Shown: piece after piece, positions 8,624-34,603 of the stretch | How positions within the stretch are numbered: position 1 is the first letter of the stretch | How the letters are laid out: each line of letters starts with the position of its first letter | DNA from: Blautia sp. | GTDB taxonomy: Bacteria; Bacillota; Clostridia; Lachnospirales; Lachnospiraceae | Reading direction: 5' to 3' | Assembly: GCA_017515325.1 (NCBI GenBank) | Contig: JAFWGA010000061.1 | Location: forward strand, 1 to 35,223 | Length of the DNA stretch: 35,223 bases | The notes under the pieces: generated by a model | Told to the model about the DNA's origin: nothing | Seen by the model: only the letters and a program-made list of their open reading frames with translations | Databases searched by the model: none | Made by a program: the position numbers and the translations under genes

Positions 8624-8676
8624 CTGTTTAACGAAACTGAAAGCAATTTCGATAATGAGTATAACAAAAAAAACAG

Positions 8677-8705
8677 TTGACACAAAGAAAGAATCATCGT
8701 ATAAT
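8677..8705 (+). promoter_or_regulatory. Consensus sigma-A promoter for tRNA-Thr(CGU)
   Basis: TTGACA, 17 bases, TATAAT: a perfect match to the housekeeping consensus. Transcription would start near 8712, about 45 bases before the tRNA. Confidence 0.92.
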
Positions 8706-8756
8706 CATGCTTGCGTCAAACGGAAAGCTTAATGAACAGTTGTTTTCGTTTGTCGA

Positions 8757-8829
8757 GCTGGAATAGCTCAGTCGGTAGAGCACTTCACTCGTAATGAAGG
8801 GGTCGAGAGTTCGAGTCTCTTTTCCAGCT
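8757..8829 (+). tRNA. tRNA-Thr, anticodon CGU
   Basis: A full cloverleaf can be drawn. The acceptor arm GCTGGAA pairs with TTCCAGC, the D arm contains AGCTCAGTCGGTAGAGC, the anticodon arm is CTTCA / TGAAG around the loop CTCGTAA, and the T loop is TTCGAGT. The anticodon in DNA letters is CGT, reading ACG threonine codons. CCA is not encoded. It has its own consensus promoter and terminator, so it is a single-gene unit. Confidence 0.95.
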
Positions 8830-8835
8830 TTTTCG

Positions 8836-8867
8836 ATACCTTCTCCTGCAGGAGAAGGTATTTTTTT
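8836..8867 (+). terminator. Intrinsic terminator of tRNA-Thr(CGU)
   Basis: An 11-bp perfect stem (ATACCTTCTCC / GGAGAAGGTAT) with a four-base TGCA loop is followed by seven T. Confidence 0.93.
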
Positions 8868-9022
8868 GCCGGAGCATAGTCAGGTGACATCTTCCTTTCG
8901 GCGCCCCTGACATGACATACCAATAAGGCGGAGGGAGGCACAGCCGACACTCTGCCCCCCTGCCTGAGCCGCGTGCCCATGTTAGTCAGAAAAACTCATG
9001 ACGCGGCTCGGGGATAGAAAAA
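8868..9022. repeat. Structured intergenic repeat, family 2, copy A
   Basis: Shares many blocks in the same order with 21592-21738: a 27-base block beginning GTCAGGTGACATC (8879-8905), a CCAATA box, GGCACAGCCG, a C-rich run, and the 9-bp stem GAGCCGCGT (8966-8974) / ACGCGGCTC (9001-9009), followed by GGGATA and an A-run. The loop of the stem differs between copies except for a TAGTC-GAAAAA core. It fills the space between two convergent tRNA genes. Function unknown; a structured RNA or a BIME-like element are possible. Confidence 0.75.
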
Positions 9023-9045
9023 GGGCAGCGCCAACCGCGCTGCCC
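9018..9045 (-). terminator. Intrinsic terminator of tRNA-Thr(GGU)
   Basis: On the minus strand a 9-bp perfect stem (GGGCAGCGC / GCGCTGCCC, loop five bases) is followed by five T. It lies 75 bases beyond the 3' end of the minus-strand tRNA. Confidence 0.88.
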
Positions 9046-9120
9046 TGCTTTGTTTGTAAGATAGAGGATAGATCGTAACCCAGCAGAATACTTTCAAATG
9101 ACTTCCAGACATAAAAATAA

Positions 9121-9193
9121 AGCTGCTGACGGGAATCGGACCCGTGACCTCCGCCTTACCAAGGCGACGCTCTACCGACTGAGCCACAGCAGC
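9121..9193 (-). tRNA. tRNA-Thr, anticodon GGU
   Basis: A cloverleaf is complete: acceptor GCTGCTG / CAGCAGC, D arm with GGCTCAGTCGGTAGAGC, anticodon stem TCGCC / GGCGG around TTGGTAA, and T loop GTCCGATTC. The anticodon in DNA letters is GGT, reading ACC and ACU threonine codons. CCA is not encoded. It faces the other tRNA-Thr gene. Confidence 0.95.
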
Positions 9194-9233
9194 TTATGAA
9201 GGAAAGAGAAAACTCTCTCGCTCACAAGACGGT

Positions 9234-9262
9234 ACTTTACCATAGCTCTTCCGGTTTGTCAA
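9234..9262 (-). promoter_or_regulatory. Sigma-A promoter for tRNA-Thr(GGU)
   Basis: On the minus strand TTGACA, 17 bases, TAAAGT. The position, about 35 bases upstream of the mature tRNA, is ideal. A minus-strand A/T-rich stretch lies just upstream and could act as an UP element. Confidence 0.9.
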
Positions 9263-9317
9263 CTGTTTTTTCTATTTTTCTTTTTTCTATTTTACGAAAG
9301 CGAGAGCACGATGGTGC

Positions 9318-10941: not shown

Positions 10942-11008
10942 GTCACTTCTCCCTTAATGAGTTTGTGCCCGTTGGCTCGCAGCTATTGCAAACGACAAAG
11001 TACCCTTA

Positions 11009-11065
11009 TAGTAAACGAACAAAATGCCTGCATTTTGATTCGTTACTGCGGCGGATTTGCACCGC
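11009..11065. repeat. Hairpin repeat family 1, copy 1 (diverged)
   Basis: Begins ATAGTAAACGAAC and contains a perfect 8-bp stem CAAAATGC / GCATTTTG with a two-base gap, flanked by GTAAACGA and TTCGTTAC arms. The following GGCGG / CCGCC hairpin (from 11050) matches the second hairpin of copies 2 and 3 at 13 of 18 aligned positions. It lies between apeB and the DUF3786 gene, in the leader of the latter. Confidence 0.75.
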
Positions 11066-12541: not shown

Positions 12542-12597
12542 GCAACTGTTCCGGTCAGCTGCCCGCAGCAAGTGTGAGCTTCCGGCCGAACGGTTGC
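12542..12597 (-). repeat. Long imperfect stem in the apeB leader
   Basis: GCAACTGTTCCGG (12542-12554) pairs with CCGGCCGAACGGTTGC (12582-12597), with one G-T wobble and a three-base bulge. There is no T-run. It lies between repeat copy 2 and the apeB ribosome binding site. Confidence 0.5.
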
Positions 12598-12611
12598 GCT
12601 GCTTTCAATCA

Positions 12612-12713
12612 GTTATAGTAAACGGACAAGATACCTGCATTTTGATTCGTTTACTGCGCCGAATTTACGTCGCTGTAAGCGGCATGATTCCGCGGTAAAT
12701 TCGTGCGCATCCT
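12612..12713. repeat. Hairpin repeat family 1, copy 2
   Basis: Two adjacent hairpins. The first runs from GTAAACG (12618) to CGTTTAC (12654). The second has outer arms GCGCCGAATTTAC (12656-12668) and GTAAATTCGTGCGC (12695-12708) and an inner CGCTGTAAGCG loop. The arrangement is almost the same at 19324-19413. Read on the minus strand it starts at the predicted transcription start of apeB and fills the first 100 bases of that leader. Confidence 0.88.
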
Positions 12714-12715
12714 AT

Positions 12716-12745
12716 ATTATACGTCATCTCTTTTCTCTTTTTCAA
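12716..12745 (-). promoter_or_regulatory. apeB promoter
   Basis: On the minus strand TTGAAA, 18 bases, TATAAT. The expected start, near 12709, coincides with the outer edge of hairpin repeat copy 2, so the RNA would begin with GCGCACGAA. Confidence 0.75.
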
Positions 12746-12790
12746 TCCTTTCTATCCGTCCTTGTACAAAAAAGCAAAAACCGAAACCAT

Positions 12791-13651
12791 TTATGGCTGA
12801 GCCGCTATAACCAGGGTCTTATATTTCTTCTGCCAGATGGCAATCTGCCGGTCTGTGATCTTCATGATAGCGTCAAAAATATACTCATATGCCAGTGGGC
12901 AGCTTTCCACCAGAGTGGACGGGCAAAAAGCGTAATCCCTTGCTGCTGCAGCAAAAAAGGTGGAACTGTTCTGACGGGCAAAGAAGGGATTTTTCCCTTT
13001 ATACTTTCCCTTCTCCTGCGCATAGATCTGTTTAAACTCCTTTGAAGTTGCTGCATTTCCTGCCATCTGAGAAATAAAATACCCCATCATAAAGCAGAGA
13101 TCATCCACCCCTGCTCCCGGCGTAAAAACAATCTTCCGGTTTTGCGAGTCATACTTCAGCTCACAGCCCATATGCCTGAGGTCCAGTTCAAAGATAAAAC
13201 CCAATGCGTCCCACGCCCTTTTTACCGGGGCTTCGAACAGAGCAAACACCTCCCTCTGGATCGCCTGGGAGGAAAGGGAGAAGGTATACTTTTTTACCCT
13301 CGTGACAATGGTTTTCCTGGTTTTCTTTGTTTTCCCTTTTGTAAAGGTATCCGTCACTCTTGTGCGCTTTGTTCCCGTATACTTCCCTGTAATGATCCCT
13401 TCGGCAAAAGAATCCTTGCCGGAAATCTTCTCTGTTTTATCCAGAACGCTTACCGTCCTGGAGGATACAGCCCTGGGGCAGGTGAGCACGGCTGTATCTG
13501 ACTGGGATGATGTCATAGTAATGCCACCAGGAGCAGATGACTGAGTGGCAGCGGCCCAGACCTGGTCTGCACTTCCCTGCAGCAGAATACATGCCATCAA
13601 TAATGCAATAAAAGATCTGACAGATTTCTCTGTTCCCACATTTTTCTTCAT
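12791..13651 (-). CDS. Secreted protein resembling a metallopeptidase that has lost its zinc ligands
   Basis: From the ATG at 13651 (GGAGG six bases before it) the protein has 286 residues. A clear signal peptide (about 1-30: charged start, hydrophobic FIALLMACILL, cleavage after VWA-A) implies export. A Lys/Thr/Arg-rich stretch (about 95-125) follows. The C-terminal half resembles secreted gluzincin-type peptidases: KYDSQNRKIVF, a helix where HExxH would be expected (FMMGYFISQ, about 186-195), an EFKQIYAQEKGKY segment, and FFAAAARDY followed by CPLAYEYIFD. In active relatives the second helix carries ExFAEAF. Here the histidines and glutamates are absent. The peptidase relation is inference from pattern, not a search. 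A longer in-frame start exists at 13981 but lacks a signal peptide and crosses the terminator. Confidence 0.6.
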   Translation of the reverse strand: MKKNVGTEKSVRSFIALLMACILLQGSADQVWAAATQSSAPGGITMTSSQSDTAVLTCPRAVSSRTVSVLDKTEKISGKDSFAEGIITGKYTGTKRTRVTDTFTKGKTKKTRKTIVTRVKKYTFSLSSQAIQREVFALFEAPVKRAWDALGFIFELDLRHMGCELKYDSQNRKIVFTPGAGVDDLCFMMGYFISQMAGNAATSKEFKQIYAQEKGKYKGKNPFFARQNSSTFFAAAARDYAFCPSTLVESCPLAYEYIFDAIMKITDRQIAIWQKKYKTLVIAAQP

Positions 13652-13811
13652 TTTCGTCCTCCTGTCTCTAACTGTCCTTGGTTTTTGGTAAACACGGCGA
13701 AAACAGGATACCATCGCATCTGTTTCCAGGGGATAAGGCAATGATAGCATATTCCCTCTGACAGATGCTGTCGCTTGGTGTCGTTCCGAAATATTTTCTT
13801 TTTGTGATAAA
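13652..13811. other. Spacer upstream of the secreted-protein gene
   Basis: No gene is supported. It should hold the promoter of the minus-strand secreted-protein gene; a TATCAT box is seen on the minus strand without a convincing -35. Confidence 0.4.
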
Positions 13812-13859
13812 AAGAAAATGTGCAGGATGTCATGGTCCATGGCTGCCGACATCCTGCAC
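13812..13859 (-). terminator. Intrinsic terminator of the SpoIIE-type phosphatase operon
   Basis: A perfect 12-bp stem (GTGCAGGATGTC at 13820-13831, GACATCCTGCAC at 13848-13859) is followed on the minus strand by ATTTTCTTTTT. The inner loop can form a further small CCATGG-type pairing. It closes the operon that starts with tetR. Confidence 0.85.
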
Positions 13860-13907
13860 ACTTTTATTCTTCCCACTCCCCCAACTACCGCATCAGGGAT
13901 CAGGAAA

Positions 13908-15761
13908 TCACCTGTCACCAAGATACTGAAAATACAGCATCGTCGTATCATCGAACTGGGGAACATCCCCACAGTAAGCATCGATCTCCTCTTTCATTCG
14001 CTCCAGAAGCTCTTCTGGCTCTGCGCTGGTATTCCGGTTCAGCACCTGCAGCATCCTGTCTGTGCCAAATTGCTGGTTATCTTTATTGACAGCTTCCGGA
14101 ACGCCATCCGTATAAACAAACAGTCTGTCACCAGGATTCATCCTGAATTTGCGGTCCTGGAACTGAAGTCCTGGCAGGATGCCAATCATCGGGTCATGAC
14201 TGTACCTGATCAGTTTATAGGAGTCATCAGCCTTGCAGACAGCCGGATGCTCGTGCCCTGCATTAACGGTTACTCCTTCCCCGGTCTTAAGATTTATCAG
14301 GGCAAACCATACTGTCACGAAATATCCTGATTCATTTCTCTCACATAGCTGGTCATTTACATGGGTGATGATCTCCACTGGGCTCTCACCCATCTTCGCG
14401 TGATCCTTGATCAGCGTTTTCGTAACCATCATGAACAGGGCCGCCGGTACACCCTTGTCAGAAACATCACCTATGACCAGAGCCAGCTGATCCTGTCCGA
14501 CAAAGAAAAAGTCATAGAAGTCCCCCCCCACCTCTCTGGCGGGAGTCATTGTGGCGTACAGATCAAATTCCCTTCTCTCCGAAAAGGTCGAAAAATCCTT
14601 CGGCAGCACCTGCGACTGGATCTGTGCCGCGATATTCAGTTCAGCCTCGTATCTCTCCTTTTGGGATGTTACTGTCCTGATCTGTTCCACGTAATCGTCG
14701 ATTTCAGTGGTAAGATCCCTGAAGTCCTCCGCCAGCTGACCAACTTCATTCTCACGAACTGCCATCGCCCTCTTCTTTCCGGACAGGATCTGGGACATAT
14801 CCTGTCTGGCGGCAGCTCCGTCTCTTGTCTTTGTATACTTTCGGATACTGTCGAGAATTTTCTTCAGGGGATGGATGACATAAAAAAGCAGATGACACAT
14901 CACCAGCTCCAGCAGCAGGAACTGATACCCGGCGTCAAGCAGGGTGCTTTTAAGGGCATCCGTGCGAATCCGGGACTTCAGATTCTTCATGTTATAGGTT
15001 ACTCCGGCAAGATATGCCTGGTCTCCCATCACTTCCAGGCATTCGTAGTAGTCCAGGTAATCACCAGCCATCGTGAGTTCTTCTCCGAAGACAGTCCCGG
15101 AATCCGATTGTTCTTTCCCTGACGCCTCTACAGCCTCCCGCATACTGGAGGCCGTACTCTTGTCCTCCAGGACAGATACCGTAACCCCAAGAGTATAAAC
15201 ATCTTCATAGCTTGTCCCTCTCGTGGAATCCGGGTCTGCCGCGCTCATCAGGAAGCATTGTTTCTCATAGGGCTGATCCGTTTTTTCCGTATCGGTCACA
15301 ACCAGGAAGAGATAATCGCATCCCAGATTCCGCTTAATTTCATTGATACGGGTAAGGATCCAGGAGTAGGCAATCTCTGCGTACAGCTTTTGGTCCTGCA
15401 CGGACATTGCTTCGATCTCATCCTGACTCAGGTAATGGAGGGAAAGCTCCGGGTGACGGGCACTGAACTGCATTTGTTTTTGCTCGGTAAGGGTACCGCT
15501 GCCAAAATCAGCATCATACTCCACATCAATCCTGTCTGCATTTGCATACCAGTATTCCAGCAGCCACTGATAGGCAGGGTATTCCTTTATGGCAGAGATC
15601 ATCTCCAGCGCAGCTGCCTCTGCGCTGTTACCGGTAGTGGTCCTGACTGCATTTTCCGACACTTTCCGCTGTGAAAAATTGGTGATGACACCAGCCGTAA
15701 ATATCCCGATCATCATCAAGAGACTGATCTGGGTGTAAATGCCCCTTTTTTTCTGTTTCAT
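13908..15761 (-). CDS. Membrane-bound PP2C/SpoIIE-type serine phosphatase with extracellular sensor
   Basis: From the ATG at 15761 the protein has 617 residues. The first transmembrane helix is at about 8-28, then an extracellular region of about 240 residues, a second helix near 275-295, a HAMP-like linker with HPLKKILDSI, a coiled coil, and the C-terminal phosphatase. In that domain the motifs are AREVGGDFYDFF, GDVSDKGVPAALFM, NAGHEHPA and YTDGVPEAVN, which carry the metal-binding Asp residues. Such RsbU-like enzymes dephosphorylate anti-sigma-factor antagonists or other Ser/Thr phosphoproteins. No anti-sigma partner is adjacent. GGGAGG precedes the start at long spacing; an in-frame ATG at 15809 is an alternative. 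It is the last gene of the TetR-controlled operon. Confidence 0.9.
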   Translation of the reverse strand: MKQKKRGIYTQISLLMMIGIFTAGVITNFSQRKVSENAVRTTTGNSAEAAALEMISAIKEYPAYQWLLEYWYANADRIDVEYDADFGSGTLTEQKQMQFSARHPELSLHYLSQDEIEAMSVQDQKLYAEIAYSWILTRINEIKRNLGCDYLFLVVTDTEKTDQPYEKQCFLMSAADPDSTRGTSYEDVYTLGVTVSVLEDKSTASSMREAVEASGKEQSDSGTVFGEELTMAGDYLDYYECLEVMGDQAYLAGVTYNMKNLKSRIRTDALKSTLLDAGYQFLLLELVMCHLLFYVIHPLKKILDSIRKYTKTRDGAAARQDMSQILSGKKRAMAVRENEVGQLAEDFRDLTTEIDDYVEQIRTVTSQKERYEAELNIAAQIQSQVLPKDFSTFSERREFDLYATMTPAREVGGDFYDFFFVGQDQLALVIGDVSDKGVPAALFMMVTKTLIKDHAKMGESPVEIITHVNDQLCERNESGYFVTVWFALINLKTGEGVTVNAGHEHPAVCKADDSYKLIRYSHDPMIGILPGLQFQDRKFRMNPGDRLFVYTDGVPEAVNKDNQQFGTDRMLQVLNRNTSAEPEELLERMKEEIDAYCGDVPQFDDTTMLYFQYLGDR

Positions 15762-15825
15762 GATAGCTTTGATCCTCCCTGAAAAAATGATCGCGATAAT
15801 CAAAATCATTCCTTCCCCGCAGCAT

Positions 15826-16140
15826 TTACCGCCCTTTGGAAGTCATATCTGTCGTCCTGGCTTTCTTAATCCCCAGACAGGTAAGAGGAAGGCGGCTCGA
15901 GGATAAAAAAACATCCATCAGGAAAAGCAGAGGGTTGATATAATGGATCATTGCCTTATTGCTGCCGGTAAATTCCAGTATCTTCAGGACGGAAAGAACG
16001 AGGAAAACGAACCCTAAGCTCTTCCCCAGCATGGGGATATACGGCACCGGAACCAAAAACAGGGTCAACCCTGTAAACATAAGGAGAATGATCATCAGGA
16101 GCATTTTCCTTTTAAACCTGTCCAGAGTATTAAACAGCAT
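15826..16140 (-). CDS. Small membrane protein of unknown function
   Basis: 104 residues with three hydrophobic segments (about 13-31, 34-55 and 62-78) and a basic C-terminal tail. I do not recognise the family. Its ATG follows the dehydrogenase stop with no gap, and AAGGGAG lies just upstream, so it is translated from the same message. The phosphatase follows closely. It may be a membrane partner of the phosphatase; this is a guess from position only. Confidence 0.75.
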   Translation of the reverse strand: MLFNTLDRFKRKMLLMIILLMFTGLTLFLVPVPYIPMLGKSLGFVFLVLSVLKILEFTGSNKAMIHYINPLLFLMDVFLSSSRLPLTCLGIKKARTTDMTSKGR

Positions 16141-16980
16141 TTATTCTCCCTTTACGTTTTTGAATCGTTTGCCGGTGGAAGCCCCGCCATCGATCAGTAC
16201 ATCAATGCCGCTGAGATATCCATTCCTCTCATCCGCGATCATAGCGATGGCAAAGCCCAGCTCCGCAGGTCTTCCCATTCTGTGCTCACAGGTGTTTTCG
16301 ATCATCTGCCTGGCAAAATCCGACTGCTGCACTTCCTGTGTCCCCATATCTGTCTCGATCAGGCCGGGACTGACAGAAACCACGCGGATTCCCTTTCTGG
16401 CATATTCATGGGCGCATTTCTGGGCGTACCACACAACGAAATTTTTGCTTAAGGTATAGGCCATACCTGACTTCAGATAATCCTTCGGCGCAAGATTTGC
16501 CTCCCCTGTCATATGCTTGACAAAGGCTTCCTCCTTGTACTCCGCCTCTTCATAAATCTGATGCTTCACCAGAATTCCAGGAGCTTCATAGGCAGAGCTG
16601 GACGCAACGTCAACGATCACGCCGCCCTCATTCATATATTTATAAAACTCCATGTTGACATTCTTCGTACCCACCGCGTTAACCATGATGATCTTCTCAG
16701 GATCCGCCATCGAAGGGGACAGCCCGGCCGCATGAATCACAGTTTTTATCGTGCCAAGGCTTGCGGCCAGCAGACACAGTTCATGGACATCCCGACGTAC
16801 CGAAACATCACAGGCTGTCAGATGAACCTGGTGCCCCTCCGCCTCCAGCTGCTCTTTTGCCTTTTCCAGCTTGGATACCGTTCTGCCCGTCAATACCAGA
16901 ATAACATCTTTATCTATATTTCTTGCGGTCTCAAGCCCCATGCCGCTTCCGCCGCCGGTAATCACACATACATTTGCCAT
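16141..16980 (-). CDS. Short-chain dehydrogenase/reductase (classical SDR)
   Basis: 279 residues from the ATG at 16980, chosen because AAGGAGG sits six bases upstream. The Rossmann glycine motif TGGGSGMG is near residue 7, HAAG (in place of NNAG) near 85, the catalytic Ser in VASSSAYE, and the YxxxK pair in YTLSK near 183, followed by the SPGLIETDM segment. It would oxidise or reduce an alcohol/ketone with NAD(P). The insertion between the active-site Ser and Tyr is long, as in some steroid and 3-alpha-hydroxysteroid dehydrogenase relatives, but the substrate cannot be assigned. It follows the epimerase-like gene by 25 bases. Confidence 0.9.
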   Translation of the reverse strand: MANVCVITGGGSGMGLETARNIDKDVILVLTGRTVSKLEKAKEQLEAEGHQVHLTACDVSVRRDVHELCLLAASLGTIKTVIHAAGLSPSMADPEKIIMVNAVGTKNVNMEFYKYMNEGGVIVDVASSSAYEAPGILVKHQIYEEAEYKEEAFVKHMTGEANLAPKDYLKSGMAYTLSKNFVVWYAQKCAHEYARKGIRVVSVSPGLIETDMGTQEVQQSDFARQMIENTCEHRMGRPAELGFAIAMIADERNGYLSGIDVLIDGGASTGKRFKNVKGE

Positions 16981-17005
16981 CTTTTTCCTCCTTTTTTCAA
17001 AGCCC

Positions 17006-18043
17006 TTATGCTTCTTCCTTTTTAATGATCCCCTCTGCAAGCAGCCATGTAATCATATCATGGATTGTTTCATCATAAGACCGGGTAGAATACCCCAGTT
17101 CTTCTTTTGCCTTGCTCGAATCAAAACGATTGTTTCTGGCCAGATTATAAACGCCAAAGGTTGTCATGACAGGCTTTTCTCCGGTCATTTTTGCGGCTTT
17201 CTCCATGGCATATCCCATAATATTCGCCGCGAAAATCGGAAGGAAAACACTTACTTTCTTTCCGCCGCTTTCCTCGGTGATCATACGGCAGAACTCCTTA
17301 AAGGTAACCGGTTCGTTGGCGAGAATATAGCATTCCCCGCAGCGACCCTTTTCCGCGGCTGCAATCAGGCCCTGTGCCAGATCCCTGACGTCACAGAGAT
17401 TAAAATTACCGTCTATCCCTGCCGGAAGCTCTCCATTCATGATCTGAATCAGGTTCTTGGTGATATCACCAACCGCATAGTCGCCAGGCCCCATGATCCC
17501 GCTGGGCTGGACAACGCAGGCATTCAGCCCTCTGTGATGGACTGCATCCAGAACCTCCTGCGTGGCAATCGCCTTGCTCTGGGCATAACAACCGGGAACC
17601 TTTGTCTCGTCAAAGTAATCTATCTCCTTAATCGAGCCCTCCGGTATCTCCGGAATGGCTCCCGTACTGGAACAGTACAACAGCTTTGTCACCCCTGGTG
17701 TCTCCAGGCAAAGGTCAATGATGTTTTTCGTCCCTCCTACATTTACATCCATCACCTTCTGATTATAGTCCGGCGATGTCGTGACAATGCTGCCGATGTG
17801 AAGAACGATTGCCTCTTCTCCCTCCTTCAGATCAAAAAACGGTTTCAGGCTCTCTTTGTTCGAGAGGTCGCCTTCAATGACCTGGGCTTCCTCCGGAACG
17901 AACTTCATAGCCGGATCTTTCGGTAAAACCAAAGCCCTTACCCTTCTTCCCTCCTTTACAAGCCGACGGCATACGTTACCGCCAAGGAAGCCTGCCGCAC
18001 CGGTAACCAAAAAAAGTGTGTTCGGGTTTATTTCTGCTGCCAT
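17006..18043 (-). CDS. NAD-dependent epimerase/dehydratase-family (extended SDR) oxidoreductase
   Basis: 345 residues from the ATG at 18043, which has AGGAG ten bases upstream. The N-terminal GAAGFLGG nucleotide-binding motif is near residue 15, the active-site YCSSTGAIPE near 120, and YAQSKA near 149 supplies the Tyr and Lys. The extended SDR fold and the dihydroflavonol-reductase-like C-terminus (YSTRSYDETIHDMITWL) suggest a ketone or aldehyde reductase or a sugar-nucleotide enzyme. It is the first enzyme gene after tetR in the operon. Confidence 0.88.
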   Translation of the reverse strand: MAAEINPNTLFLVTGAAGFLGGNVCRRLVKEGRRVRALVLPKDPAMKFVPEEAQVIEGDLSNKESLKPFFDLKEGEEAIVLHIGSIVTTSPDYNQKVMDVNVGGTKNIIDLCLETPGVTKLLYCSSTGAIPEIPEGSIKEIDYFDETKVPGCYAQSKAIATQEVLDAVHHRGLNACVVQPSGIMGPGDYAVGDITKNLIQIMNGELPAGIDGNFNLCDVRDLAQGLIAAAEKGRCGECYILANEPVTFKEFCRMITEESGGKKVSVFLPIFAANIMGYAMEKAAKMTGEKPVMTTFGVYNLARNNRFDSSKAKEELGYSTRSYDETIHDMITWLLAEGIIKKEEA

Positions 18044-18127
18044 GTGTGATGTTCTCCTTTCAAAAATACCGTTACCGATAAATCTATTATCAATCAGGTA
18101 AAAAAAATCCTTCATGCCTTTGAAGGA

Positions 18128-18760
18128 TTATCCGTTGTCTTTGGGATTTTTTAATCCCAGTGCTTTATGCCAGTCTAAAAAATTGTGTATGGTTTCCGCA
18201 TGTGACAAAATCTGTTCCCGGGTTAAGTCGTAAAAAAACGGCTCATAGAAAAGGGCCCATACAGCGTAAGTCAGAATATGCAATTCATCCTCCGAAACAG
18301 ACTTGGTGGTCAGCCCTCTCCGACGTGCCTCCAGATAATGCCTGTAGTCCAACCGATTCATCGTATTCGCCCAGTCATGATGAAAATCACTGAATCTACT
18401 TCCGGCTGAGCATCGAATCAGGAGAGTTAATCCTACTTTATGTTCATACAAAAACTCCAGCCACCTCCTGTTTATCTCCGAAGGCATGGAGAAGGTATCA
18501 TAAATCTCCTGATCTGTACACTTTGTCAGATCTTTCCGTTCAATCTCCAGAACATAGCTTTCCAAATCCCGGATGGTATCGCACACCAATGAGTAAAACA
18601 AGTCTTCCTTCCCACTGTAACGCTTATACAAAGCGCCTGTCGTCACACCTGCCTGCCTACAGATCTCGGCAAGGGAAGATCTGTCAAACCCGTTTTTCAG
18701 GAATTCCTCCCTGGCCGCAGCCAACAAACGCGGATCAATGCTTTTATCAGGAACAGACAT
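18128..18760 (-). CDS. TetR/AcrR-family transcriptional regulator
   Basis: 210 residues from the ATG at 18760; AAGGAGG lies eight bases upstream, which favours it over the longer reading to 18832. The N-terminal helix-turn-helix is typical: AAREEFLKNGFDRSSLAEICRQ, here shown as its parts AAREEFLKNGF, SSLAEIC and VTTGALYKRYSGKEDLFY. The C-terminal domain would bind an unknown ligand. It lies 84 bases upstream of the epimerase-like gene on the same strand. A palindrome over its own promoter (18784-18812) suggests that it represses itself and the operon. Confidence 0.92.
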   Translation of the reverse strand: MSVPDKSIDPRLLAAAREEFLKNGFDRSSLAEICRQAGVTTGALYKRYSGKEDLFYSLVCDTIRDLESYVLEIERKDLTKCTDQEIYDTFSMPSEINRRWLEFLYEHKVGLTLLIRCSAGSRFSDFHHDWANTMNRLDYRHYLEARRRGLTTKSVSEDELHILTYAVWALFYEPFFYDLTREQILSHAETIHNFLDWHKALGLKNPKDNG

Positions 18761-18783
18761 TTGTTCACCCTCCTTAACTAAAC

Positions 18784-18812
18784 TAGTAATCCGAGTAGTC
18801 CGATTATTACTA
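18784..18812 (-). promoter_or_regulatory. Candidate TetR operator
   Basis: Inverted repeat with outer arms TAGTAAT (18784-18790) and ATTACTA (18806-18812) and inner CCGA/TCCG half-sites. It overlaps the -10 box and start region of the tetR promoter, the position expected for autorepression. Confidence 0.7.
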
Positions 18813-18837
18813 TAGCATTTCTCTATAGCCATGTCAA
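18809..18837 (-). promoter_or_regulatory. Promoter of the tetR-led operon
   Basis: On the minus strand TTGACA, 17 bases, TATAGT, about 50 bases before the tetR start. Close to the sigma-A consensus. Confidence 0.88.
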
Positions 18838-18900
18838 TTAAGCAGACAGGAAATTGGGAGCATCGCTTTTCATGGCTGACAGATGAAATGGCGGTTTTAA

Positions 18901-18920
18901 AATAAATTCGTGCGCATACG
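18901..18920. repeat. Fragment of hairpin repeat family 1
   Basis: TAAATTCGTGCGCATAC matches the right arm and flank of the second hairpin in copies 2 and 3. The rest of the unit is missing. Confidence 0.6.
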
Positions 18921-19059
18921 ATAAGCTCTGATAAGAGCCAAATTGCAAACCAGATAATGCAATTTGTATAATGGTGTGCTATACTTTGATTTAAGCGCTG
19001 CTATATCCAATCCTCCCCCATTGTCCGGAATTCACGTCTGTTTTCCTGAATATAGCAGA

Positions 19060-19105
19060 CGAATAAAACACTTGCCTTTTGATCCGTTTCCCACACCGGA
19101 TATAT
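19060..19105. repeat. Degenerate unit of hairpin repeat family 1
   Basis: CGAATAAAACACTTGC, CTTTTGATCCGTTT and CACCGGATATAT follow the order of copy 2 with scattered mismatches and a short deletion. The first stem is no longer perfect. Confidence 0.5.
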
Positions 19106-19145
19106 GATTATACGCAAACATGGAGATTATTCCACAGAATATTCT

Positions 19146-19318
19146 CGACCTGTGCGGTGACCGAAGGATGTGATGTTATGACTGGATAAATACAGGCAGA
19201 ACATCACATCCTTACGAGCACCACCAAGGAAATGAACAAGATGCTGATGCGCAGGAGCGAATAGCGCGGATTTTGCGCATGTCGCCGGTATCGGTCACTT
19301 CAGTGACCGCACAGATCG
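19146..19318. mobile_element. MITE-like palindromic element, 173 bases
   Basis: The two ends are near-inverted copies of each other: CGACCTGTGCGGTGACCG (19146-19163), and a right end whose reverse complement starts CGATCTGTGCGGTCAC, with nine extra bases before the GTGACCG portion. Inside, a perfect 14-bp stem AAGGATGTGATGTT (19164-19177) / AACATCACATCCTT (19200-19213) surrounds a 22-base loop, and a GCGC / GCGC hairpin lies near 19264-19278. No coding region and no clear target duplication are seen. End motifs alone occur at 8567 and 34535. Confidence 0.6.
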
Positions 19319-19323
19319 AATTT

Positions 19324-19413
19324 GTAAACGCAAAATGCTTGCATTTTGATTCGTTTACCGCGCCGAATATACGCCGCTGTAAGCGGCATGATTCCGCAGT
19401 ATATTCGTGCGCA
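19324..19413. repeat. Hairpin repeat family 1, copy 3
   Basis: The first hairpin has GTAAACG (19324) to CGTTTAC (19358) with a perfect CAAAATGC / GCATTTTG core. The second has GCGCCGAATATAC (19360-19372) and GTATATTCGTGCGC (19399-19412), with an inner GCCGCT / AGCGGC stem. Compared with copy 2, one T-A pair in the outer stem (12665/12698) has become A-T (19369/19402), so pairing is kept. It ends 35 bases before the hybrid kinase start. Confidence 0.88.
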
Positions 19414-19448
19414 TACTATATATGTCTCCAGTGTAATGAGGAACAGTT

Positions 19449-21591: not shown

Positions 21592-21738
21592 GGCGCCGGT
21601 CACCGTCAGGTGACATCTTCCTTTCGGCGCCTCTGCCAATAGGGTAAAGGGAAGCACAGCCGGACCTCTACCCCCCTCCCCGAGCCGCGTTCCGACGCTA
21701 GTCGGAAAAATTATATTACGCGGCTCTGGGATAAAAAA
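21592..21738. repeat. Structured intergenic repeat, family 2, copy B
   Basis: Begins five bases after the hybrid kinase stop. The 27-base block at 21605-21631 is identical or nearly so to 8879-8905. The stem GAGCCGCGT (21682-21690) / ACGCGGCTC (21718-21726) is identical to copy A, while the loop contains CCGAC / GTCGG instead. In this copy GGCGCCG and GTCACC can pair with GGTGAC and CGGCGCC around a bulge. It lies between two convergent kinase genes. Confidence 0.75.
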
Positions 21739-24756: not shown

Positions 24757-24784
24757 ATGGCAGAGGCGCCGATCGGAAGATGTT
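24757..24784 (-). repeat. Partial inverted copy of intergenic repeat family 2
   Basis: TGGCAGAGGCGCCGA and GGAAGATGT match the reverse complement of the first block of copy B with a short mismatch between. The rest of the unit is not recognisable. It follows the terminator directly and lies in the leader of the PucR-type gene. Confidence 0.5.
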
Positions 24785-34532: not shown

Positions 34533-34575
34533 AGTGACCGCACAATTCGAAATGCATGTATTCTGACTCATTTAC
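34533..34575. repeat. Composite repeat remnant upstream of tadA
   Basis: AGTGACCGCACA and TCGAA match the right end of the element at 19301-19320, then a diverged family 1 hairpin (CGAAATGCATGTATTCTG ending ATTTAC) follows, agreeing at 22 of 28 positions with the consensus. The join is the same as at 19301-19358, minus about 13 bases. Confidence 0.6.
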
Positions 34576-34603
34576 TTCTGTGATTCACAATTGCATAGTT
34601 CTG

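Follow-up and report, generated by a model that had tools for sequence, protein, structure and literature searches.

A structured repeat dispersed through Blautia genomes, probably a non-autonomous mobile element

Introduction

Here we describe a small dispersed element detected in a stretch of 35,223 nucleotides from Blautia sp. (family Lachnospiraceae; assembly GCA_017515325.1, contig JAFWGA010000061.1, positions 1 to 35,223), hereafter called the window, in which an initial annotation had pointed out a dispersed repeat made of two hairpins. The noted repeat is part of a large dispersed family; the element is real, structured and multi-copy, and very probably mobile. Taken as a whole, it is probably best explained as a miniature inverted-repeat transposable element (MITE), i.e., a non-autonomous mobile element of 103 bp that would have multiplied in three Blautia-type species, to about a hundred copies each. 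It would insert at TA, with tips TATAG...CTATA whose outer TA would be the target or its duplicate, and would be moved in trans by a transposase, most likely, judging from the TA target, of the IS630/Tc1-mariner type. The hairpins would be under selection during propagation, that is, in the source elements, with inserted copies mostly decaying, and their formation in single-stranded DNA or RNA may be needed for the spread of the element or for its tolerance by the host.

Small structured repeats are common in bacteria, and the upkeep of their fold is hard to test where the copies within a species differ too little. Such a test becomes possible with three species, each holding from dozens to more than 100 copies, and with diverse relatives in other genera. 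A fold kept between subfamilies, with inserted copies that drift, separates selection for propagation from host function, and the conserved core provides a search model for hunting the mobiliser.

The short form and its copies in the window

The alignment of 40 copies from the window's own genome (G000; throughout, G and L numbers designate genomes and loci, G042 being an uncultured Blautia) defines an element of 103 bp with TATAG...CTATA ends and unrelated flanks. Hairpin H1 pairs positions 5-20 with 25-41 and carries one bulged A, and hairpin H2 has an outer stem, 43-55 with 82-95, interrupted by one bulged T, and an inner one, 56-60 with 66-70, between which 11 nt on one side form a loop; an alternative helix, 66-69/77-80, was devoid of covariation. 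The complete and partial copies of the window are as follows.

12614..12716, + strand: short-form copy 1, complete, 103 bp, TATAG...CTATA; 116.5 bits with the covariance model, 93% to the family consensus
12618..12654, + strand: hairpin H1 of copy 1 (element positions 5-41, one bulged A), from the fold and pair counts
12656..12708, + strand: core hairpin H2 of copy 1, with outer stem, inner hairpin, 11-nt one-sided loop ATGATTCCGCG and bulged T; 63.5 bits with the H2-only model
19320..19420, + strand: short-form copy 2, 101 bp, with a 2-nt deletion in H1 and first four bases other than TATA; 112.4 bits
19324..19358, + strand: hairpin H1 of copy 2, from the RNA fold
19360..19412, + strand: hairpin H2 of copy 2, in which 19369/19402 has undergone the double change from T-A to A-T; 64.4 bits with the H2-only model
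11007..11065, + strand: decayed copy that retains H1 plus the first half of H2, 92% (60 columns), E 1e-16
19051..19104, + strand: decayed fragment that retains H1 plus the start of H2, 74% (54 nt), E 4e-7; 22.9 bits
18903..18923, + strand: 3′-end fragment (the last 21 nt of the element), 20/21 nt, E 9e-4

The two copies that had been described, with the same two hairpins in the same order, are borne out with refined bounds (12614-12716 and 19320-19420) and the same fold: 12627-12717 and 19331-19421 align gap-free with 82 of 91 positions identical, and no other place in the window, on either strand, exceeds 43/91. The compensatory change, T-A at 12665/12698 and A-T at 19369/19402, is present in the alignment at element positions 52/85, and the third, diverged copy, placed by the annotation at 11009-11065, is clear at 11007-11065, from where the covariance model forces the match on to 11108 (50 bits). 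As for the fragments reported at 18901, 19060 and 34549, the former two were recovered, at 18903-18923 and 19051-19104, whereas the resemblance at 34542-34576 is of chance level (E 0.61).

When the copy 1 region (12605-12725) was folded as RNA, none of 200 shuffled sequences did as well. The + strand fold beats the shuffles in both copies (z -3.5 and -4.1), while the - strand fold is stronger than the shuffles in copy 2 (z -4.6) and not in copy 1 (z -1.3). The left end is TATAG, or one change off, in 43/61 copies of G000, 25/35 of G041 and 66/71 of G042, and the right end is CTATA, or one change off, in 39/61, 29/35 and 53/71, respectively. In size and copy number the element agrees with a MITE, having 103 bp, room for at most 34 codons, and at least 87 matches in its own genome.

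Copy number and distribution

A BLAST search of copy 1 against the whole genome yielded 40 scored matches of 82-100% identity, from 150 first-look candidates. The covariance-model search of the genome and its relatives that the annotation had proposed disclosed the large dispersed family: a model built from those 40 copies gave at least 87 matches in the own genome at E up to 0.001 and at least 132 at E up to 1, some of the latter being opposite-strand shadows of palindromes; 97 of 1,215 and 150 of 1,253 candidates were scored, respectively, and the counts are lower bounds. In the same-genus sample, two of 24 other genomes had matches, G014 (3) and G018 (1), and no match was found in the 22 remaining ones nor in 16 genomes of other families, under stricter filters and with 97 candidates scored per genome. 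Furthermore, an exact-pattern scan of GTDB contigs retrieved 20 stretches, coming from Blautia sp. RGIG5147 (sheep abomasum), uncultured Blautia SRR873598_bin.26, the Lachnospiraceae metagenome-assembled genome (MAG) RUG12865 and a Eubacteriales MAG. With 150 candidates scored each, these assemblies hold, in that order, at least 124, 148, 5 and 4 scored matches, where the counts of the two Blautia assemblies may include opposite-strand shadows. Copy 1 had no match in phages or plasmids, and two exact patterns were absent from viral contigs.

Head-to-tail tandem arrays of the short form are seen in G042, at L120:1193-1494, L121 (~1540-1740), L186 (~616-820) and L220 (~423-600).

Pairing between copies and decay of single insertions

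The covariation and branch-count tests were done with purpose-made scripts, not with R-scape. Among the 40 copies of the own genome, 93.3% of 1,352 pair cells hold standard pairs (shuffled mean 92.3%) and both sides have changed in 10 cells, versus 3.8 by shuffling, a modest signal, as expected for copies of a single genome. A larger set of 174 distinct copies was gathered from the three species and a few others; 168 were tested, leaving out two G044 rows, rows with more than 6 gaps and identical rows, and most of those beyond the first 40 are high-scoring model matches. When the 5,050 column pairs of this set were ranked by a corrected G-test, the first four places went to structural pairs (6-40, 54-83, 19-26 and 14-31). 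The branch-count test, made after a strict single-pair tree null that is also reported below, shows that both partners of a pair change on 54 branches, 33 of these changes leading from one standard pair to another. By comparison, when these columns were paired at random 500 times, both-change events averaged 17.9 and pair-to-pair events 2.8 (maxima 29 and 11), and slid pairings give 10-25 and 1-5. Pair 52-85, the one singled out by the annotation, accounts for 3 pair-to-pair events. That tree also carries 248 single changes by which a pair is lost. Between genera, based on 35 distinct rows, 31 of 34 pairs show change on both sides and 93.9% of cells are paired, versus 71.5% when shuffled, in an alignment that was fitted to the model and hence leans to structure (36 rows, including near-identical copies and two opposite-strand shadows).

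A different picture is obtained within the own genome. Among the 40 copies chosen by BLAST, a single stem change breaks a pair 85 times and keeps it, as G-T, 47 times, the expectations from the loop rate being 135 and 66 (loop columns 22 and 63, variable between subfamilies, were excluded from that rate); breaks are thus 0.63 and keeps 0.71 of expectation, with single-sided changes at two thirds, and the break:keep ratio is near the neutral split. Stems have changed in total at 164/2,712 sites (6.0%) versus 59/838 (7.0%) for loops, and of 16 pairs changed on both sides 10 are still paired. The larger, partly model-chosen set gives breaks at 0.43 and keeps at 0.85 of expectation (0.43 for breaks on terminal branches).

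The position of the copies with respect to genes was classified for 84 of 167 copies of the three species by crude calling of open reading frames (ORFs), after dropping 11 with short flanks, 63 overlapping with ORFs of 80 aa or more, many of them probably spurious, and 9 unclassifiable ones. The copies are 26 sense, 29 antisense, 14 convergent and 15 divergent, without bias. This lack of orientation bias, together with the near-neutral break:keep split, argues that the fold serves the propagating element and not the host at each site, and the fold looks kept in the propagating lineage and little in each insertion. The proposal of selection on structure made by the annotation therefore stands at the level of the family, where pairing is kept through many double changes, and does not extend to strong selection on each copy. 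Substitutions that break pairing as often as they keep it, which would have spoken against that proposal, are found inside the genome but not between subfamilies and genera.

A longer three-hairpin form

In some copies GCGCAT is followed by CC-GCCGGAGGC and then by a palindromic third hairpin, TTATAGTCAACGACAAA...TTTGTCGTTGACTATAA (H3). This long form, of ~145 bp, consists of a variable hairpin, the conserved core hairpin, AUCC followed by a mini-hairpin NNC-GGA-GNN, and again a variable hairpin, and is present in G000, G042, G018, G071, G150, G474, G134 and G339. Its exact tip pattern occurs in 9/64 genomes of the genus and 16/397 of the family (own included), with 39 matches in G150; in three of the nine genus genomes (G050, G052 and G011) the pattern lies outside any such hairpin element, and these were set aside as probable chance occurrences. 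An alignment of about 145 bp brings together 21 long forms of several genera and shows a double change in 20/40 predicted pairs. H1 and H3 vary independently (e.g., at H1 position 6), each staying self-complementary, which argues for the importance of the fold rather than of one common protein-binding sequence. At one locus, L245, additional hairpins lie between H2 and H3.

The short form is what multiplied in the species of G000, G041 and G042: a long tail is carried by 2/61, 0/35 and 3/71 of their collected copies, figures that under-count long forms, the copies having been collected by similarity to the short one. The short element appears to be a trimmed form of the ~145-bp three-hairpin element, from which it would have arisen, assuming this direction of change, by losing the linker and third hairpin while retaining the last bases ACTATA.

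The conserved core and its distant relatives

An H2-only model (26 sequences, 18 pairs, 11 of them with double changes) finds matches in 18/120 genomes of the family, own included. In G186 and G094, with at least 48 and at least 26 core matches, most of those listed have the same score, pointing to recent bursts; loci of these two genomes are L289, L305, L292 and L306, and at least 8 of the listed G094 matches lie within ~120 bases of a contig start. In a class-wide sample (n=245), H2 matches occur in at least 3 genomes, the own one and two assigned to other families, a lower bound obtained with stricter filters and 23 candidates scored per genome. The loci outside the family (L311-L313) have, by eye, the same order of parts.

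In the core, unpaired bases are conserved (TTCC in the one-sided loop and the bulged T before GCGC) while the stems change. The 40 nt upstream of H2 fold at -12 kcal/mol or below in 19/24 distinct rows, a count made without a shuffle control, and their sequences are unrelated. The mini-hairpin pattern is missing in 24 of 62 rows, which include near-identical copies, short forms being without it. Thirty-two of 37 locus-and-combination entries are fully paired and 5 have one mismatch, the paired combinations being CCC/GGG (13), GCC/GGC (9), CGC/GCG (5), ACC/GGU (3) and UGC/GCA (2).

This leads to a broader and tentative reading, in which an uncatalogued class of structured mobile nucleic acid, defined by the shape and order of the parts of the long form instead of by sequence, might exist in Clostridia: its core would be read, as folded RNA or single-stranded DNA, by an enzyme multiplying it to dozens or more than 100 copies per genome, and its outer hairpins would be exchangeable.

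Two-hairpin forms with an unrelated H1 (CGAGTAGG...CCTACTCG or alike) are observed in other genera at L288, L303, L295 and L257:1576-1675. They end in GCGCAT or GTGCAT, followed by A-rich DNA, and are possibly short forms that arose independently.

Insertion sites

The copy at L093, in G042, sits inside another repeat, of which two copies are empty (L200 and L162). The filled site reads ACACTCTT-TA[TAGG...ACTA]TA-TTTCTGTGCC (right flank TTTCTG) and the empty L200 reads ACACTTTT-TA-ATTCTGTGCC (right flank ATTCTG), L162 having the same layout; the difference in length fits an insertion of 101 bp at TA, at this one clean site. Genes neighboring the window copies were found in six relatives, and the corresponding loci (L102-L107) hold no element match, in alignments that stop at the genes and in which no empty site is readable. 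Interrupted genes were also considered as empty sites; their joined flanks gave long but unconvincing frames, which were not used.

A near-perfect palindrome of ~68 bp, GGGGACGGTTCTCTTTTCTTG...AAGAAAAGAGAACCGTCCCC, is itself dispersed in G042 (L076:696-763, L085:7039-7105, L114, L162, L167, L200 and L204), and one of its copies carries the element.

A candidate mobiliser

Members of the IS630/Tc1-mariner group target TA. The IS630 domain DDE_3 is present in G150, G474, G134, G041 and G014, and of six IS630 loci inspected only L266 of G150 has well-matching TATAG...CTATA ends. These ends, TATAGCAATCCA...TGGATTGCTATA, match at 19/25 positions, with tips as TATAGCAATCC; as a control, such end pairs (at least 16/25, 900-1300 bp apart) occur in 2/116 loci. 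G150 is rich in long forms, and the tips of long forms in L044, L131 and L205 begin TATAGCAA. Unlike an IS630 element, the repeat has no transposase of its own, and the tips of the two agree over ~8 bases. Mobilisation by IS630 would thus be suggested by the TA target and about eight shared bases. A matching IS630 transposase and ends within one element-bearing genome were not found, G000 and G042 yielding no DDE_3, nor did any tip pair ~1-2 kb apart occur among the places listed, the first ones per genome, when 64 genomes of the genus and 397 of the family were scanned for the exact tip pattern.

Contrary evidence and alternative explanations

Several observations weigh against the MITE-like reading. 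Concerning the ends, exact TATAG is found in only 26/61 and exact CTATA in 24/61 G000 copies, the ends of older copies being ragged; the terminal inverted repeat measures only 5-7 bp in the short form, the long forms that belong to the TATAG subfamily reaching about 14-16 bp, and in other subfamilies it is absent or weak by eye, H1 and H3 often having no inverted similarity in the wider family, so terminal inverted repeats are not family-wide. At L093 a duplicated TA is indistinguishable from a TA borne by the element, L171 (inside the G042 palindrome) is ambiguous and fits several readings, and a near-empty paralogue of L146 is diverged, with six bases where TA is expected. The tandem arrays L121, L186 and L220 share a single TATA-like step where plain TA insertion predicts more, L120 being ambiguous. 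As to the mobiliser, DDE_3 was not found in G000, G042, G071, G339, G354 and G018, several of these assemblies being incomplete; the long forms of G150 itself begin TATAGGAA and TATAGTAA, position 6 being G or T, and share merely TATAG.AA with the IS630 of that genome; and no autonomous version whose ends enclose a gene came to light. Finally, with the tree null that re-places substitutions, run in 60 replicates, E stays at 0.05 or above for every single pair, the lowest being 6-40 (0.067) and then 54-83 (0.2), because few events are common to many copies.

The conserved features of the core raise the question of whether the family is rather one of structured RNA (H1, core H2, AUCC, mini-hairpin and H3) that spreads as copied RNA or regulates or stabilizes transcripts, which we consider unlikely. 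It would account well for unpaired core bases that persist amid changing stems, for a mini-hairpin fully paired in five combinations, and for hairpins that flank the core in most distant relatives despite unrelated sequences. Mismatches of the G-T type also outnumber A-C ones in the larger, partly model-chosen set (244 vs 144) and across genera (31 vs 17), favoring the strand as written, but the model by which these sets were chosen or aligned has a preference for G-T of its own, and the BLAST-chosen copies of the own genome favor neither strand (47 vs 45); a bias in gene orientation and a credible Rfam relative are also lacking. A role in the host as transcription terminator or 3′-end stabilizer is highly improbable and was rejected: strong hairpins in intergenic DNA and the A-rich tracts into which some relatives run would suit it, but the 84 classified copies have no preference for gene ends or orientation, pair-breaking changes are frequent, and presence among relatives is patchy.

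Template switching in quasi-palindromes can copy one arm onto the other, and the double changes could in principle stem from such mutation without selection. Twenty-five of the 33 pair-to-pair double changes lie on terminal branches, i.e., in single copies, and a perfect palindrome like H3 would be well suited as a substrate. Nevertheless, this explanation seems quite improbable, for it leaves aside the one-sided loop and bulge of H2, the mini-hairpin and the equal architecture across genera; in addition, relative to the loop-rate expectation, stem breaks amount to 0.43 on terminal branches of the partly model-chosen set and to 0.63 among the BLAST-chosen copies, whose keeps are also reduced (0.71). 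Two irregular, bulged hairpins by the ends, whose structure is conserved rather than their sequence, and the one TATA-like step shared by three of the four tandem arrays also recall an IS200/IS605-type (Y1, HUH) or REPIN-like element moved as single-stranded DNA via two subterminal hairpins. The Y1 transposase family is present, however, in 4/8 element-bearing genomes and in only one of the four with a known completeness of 90% or more and contamination not above 5%, and it was not found in G000, G150, G474 and G339; moreover, the target of the empty site of L093 reads TTTA, so that the left TATA is not wholly target. We regard this origin as very unlikely.

Comparison with known families

Rfam 15 at its gathering threshold identifies two tRNAs only in the window, and 12560-12780 has no match at E up to 1. 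The long form L246 gives nine sub-threshold matches, none convincing, the best being a microRNA model on the H3 palindrome (E 9.7e-4, 28 bits against a gathering score of 80). The comparison with Rfam suggested by the annotation thus offers no convincing family for the element. Likewise, no known mobile-element end, which the annotation had named as a possible contrary finding, was matched, though TATAG...CTATA and TA insertion look transposon-like. In a literature search for which most subscription papers were beyond reach, no recognised description of the element came up, the two papers with an 11-base piece of the tip having unrelated titles.

In size, number or ends the element resembles RUP, BOX and Correia repeats, which are compared here by description. 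RUP of pneumococcus has 107 bp and 108 copies, with mobilisation by IS630-Spn1 proposed and a TA target (PMC2229807, PMC3049150). The two are alike in length, number of copies, a strong fold and the absence of genes, and would also share short terminal repeats that include TA and the insertion at TA; the present element differs in having no matched mobiliser and in its three-hairpin relative, conserved core and covariation between species. BOX of streptococci is composed of boxA, a variable boxB and boxC (PMC3049150). It too appears as a modular structured element with modules lost or gained, but the order here is H1-core-mini-hairpin-H3 and the sequences of H1 and H3 differ between genera. 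Correia elements have TATAG-like tips. Also called NEMIS, they occur in Neisseria in forms of about 107 and 155 bp, with TA at the termini and target duplication (PMC2229807, PMC3049150). The likeness, on that description, would lie in the two size forms and the TA termini, with target duplication in Correia; their terminal repeats are of 24-26 bp, versus 5-7 bp in the short form here, and the host is unrelated. As far as the searches show, a conserved core between freely changing hairpins is an undescribed architecture.

Other repeats in the window

A second dispersed structured repeat, of ~190 bp (19138-19331), directly adjoins copy 2; it forms a long hairpin, TCGACCTGTGCGGTGACC...GGTCACTTCAGTGACCGCACAGATCGA (DNA fold z -7.2), and has relatives in G041 and G042. 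Moreover, the two tRNA genes at 8757-8829 (+ strand) and 9121-9193 (- strand) are located between 44-nt inverted repeats, 73% complementary, within 8658-9281. A third repeat, GTCAGGTGACATCTTCCTTTCGGCGCC, is found at 8879-8912, 21605-21638 and, inverted, 24758-24783, and a similar stretch flanks the element copy in L131.

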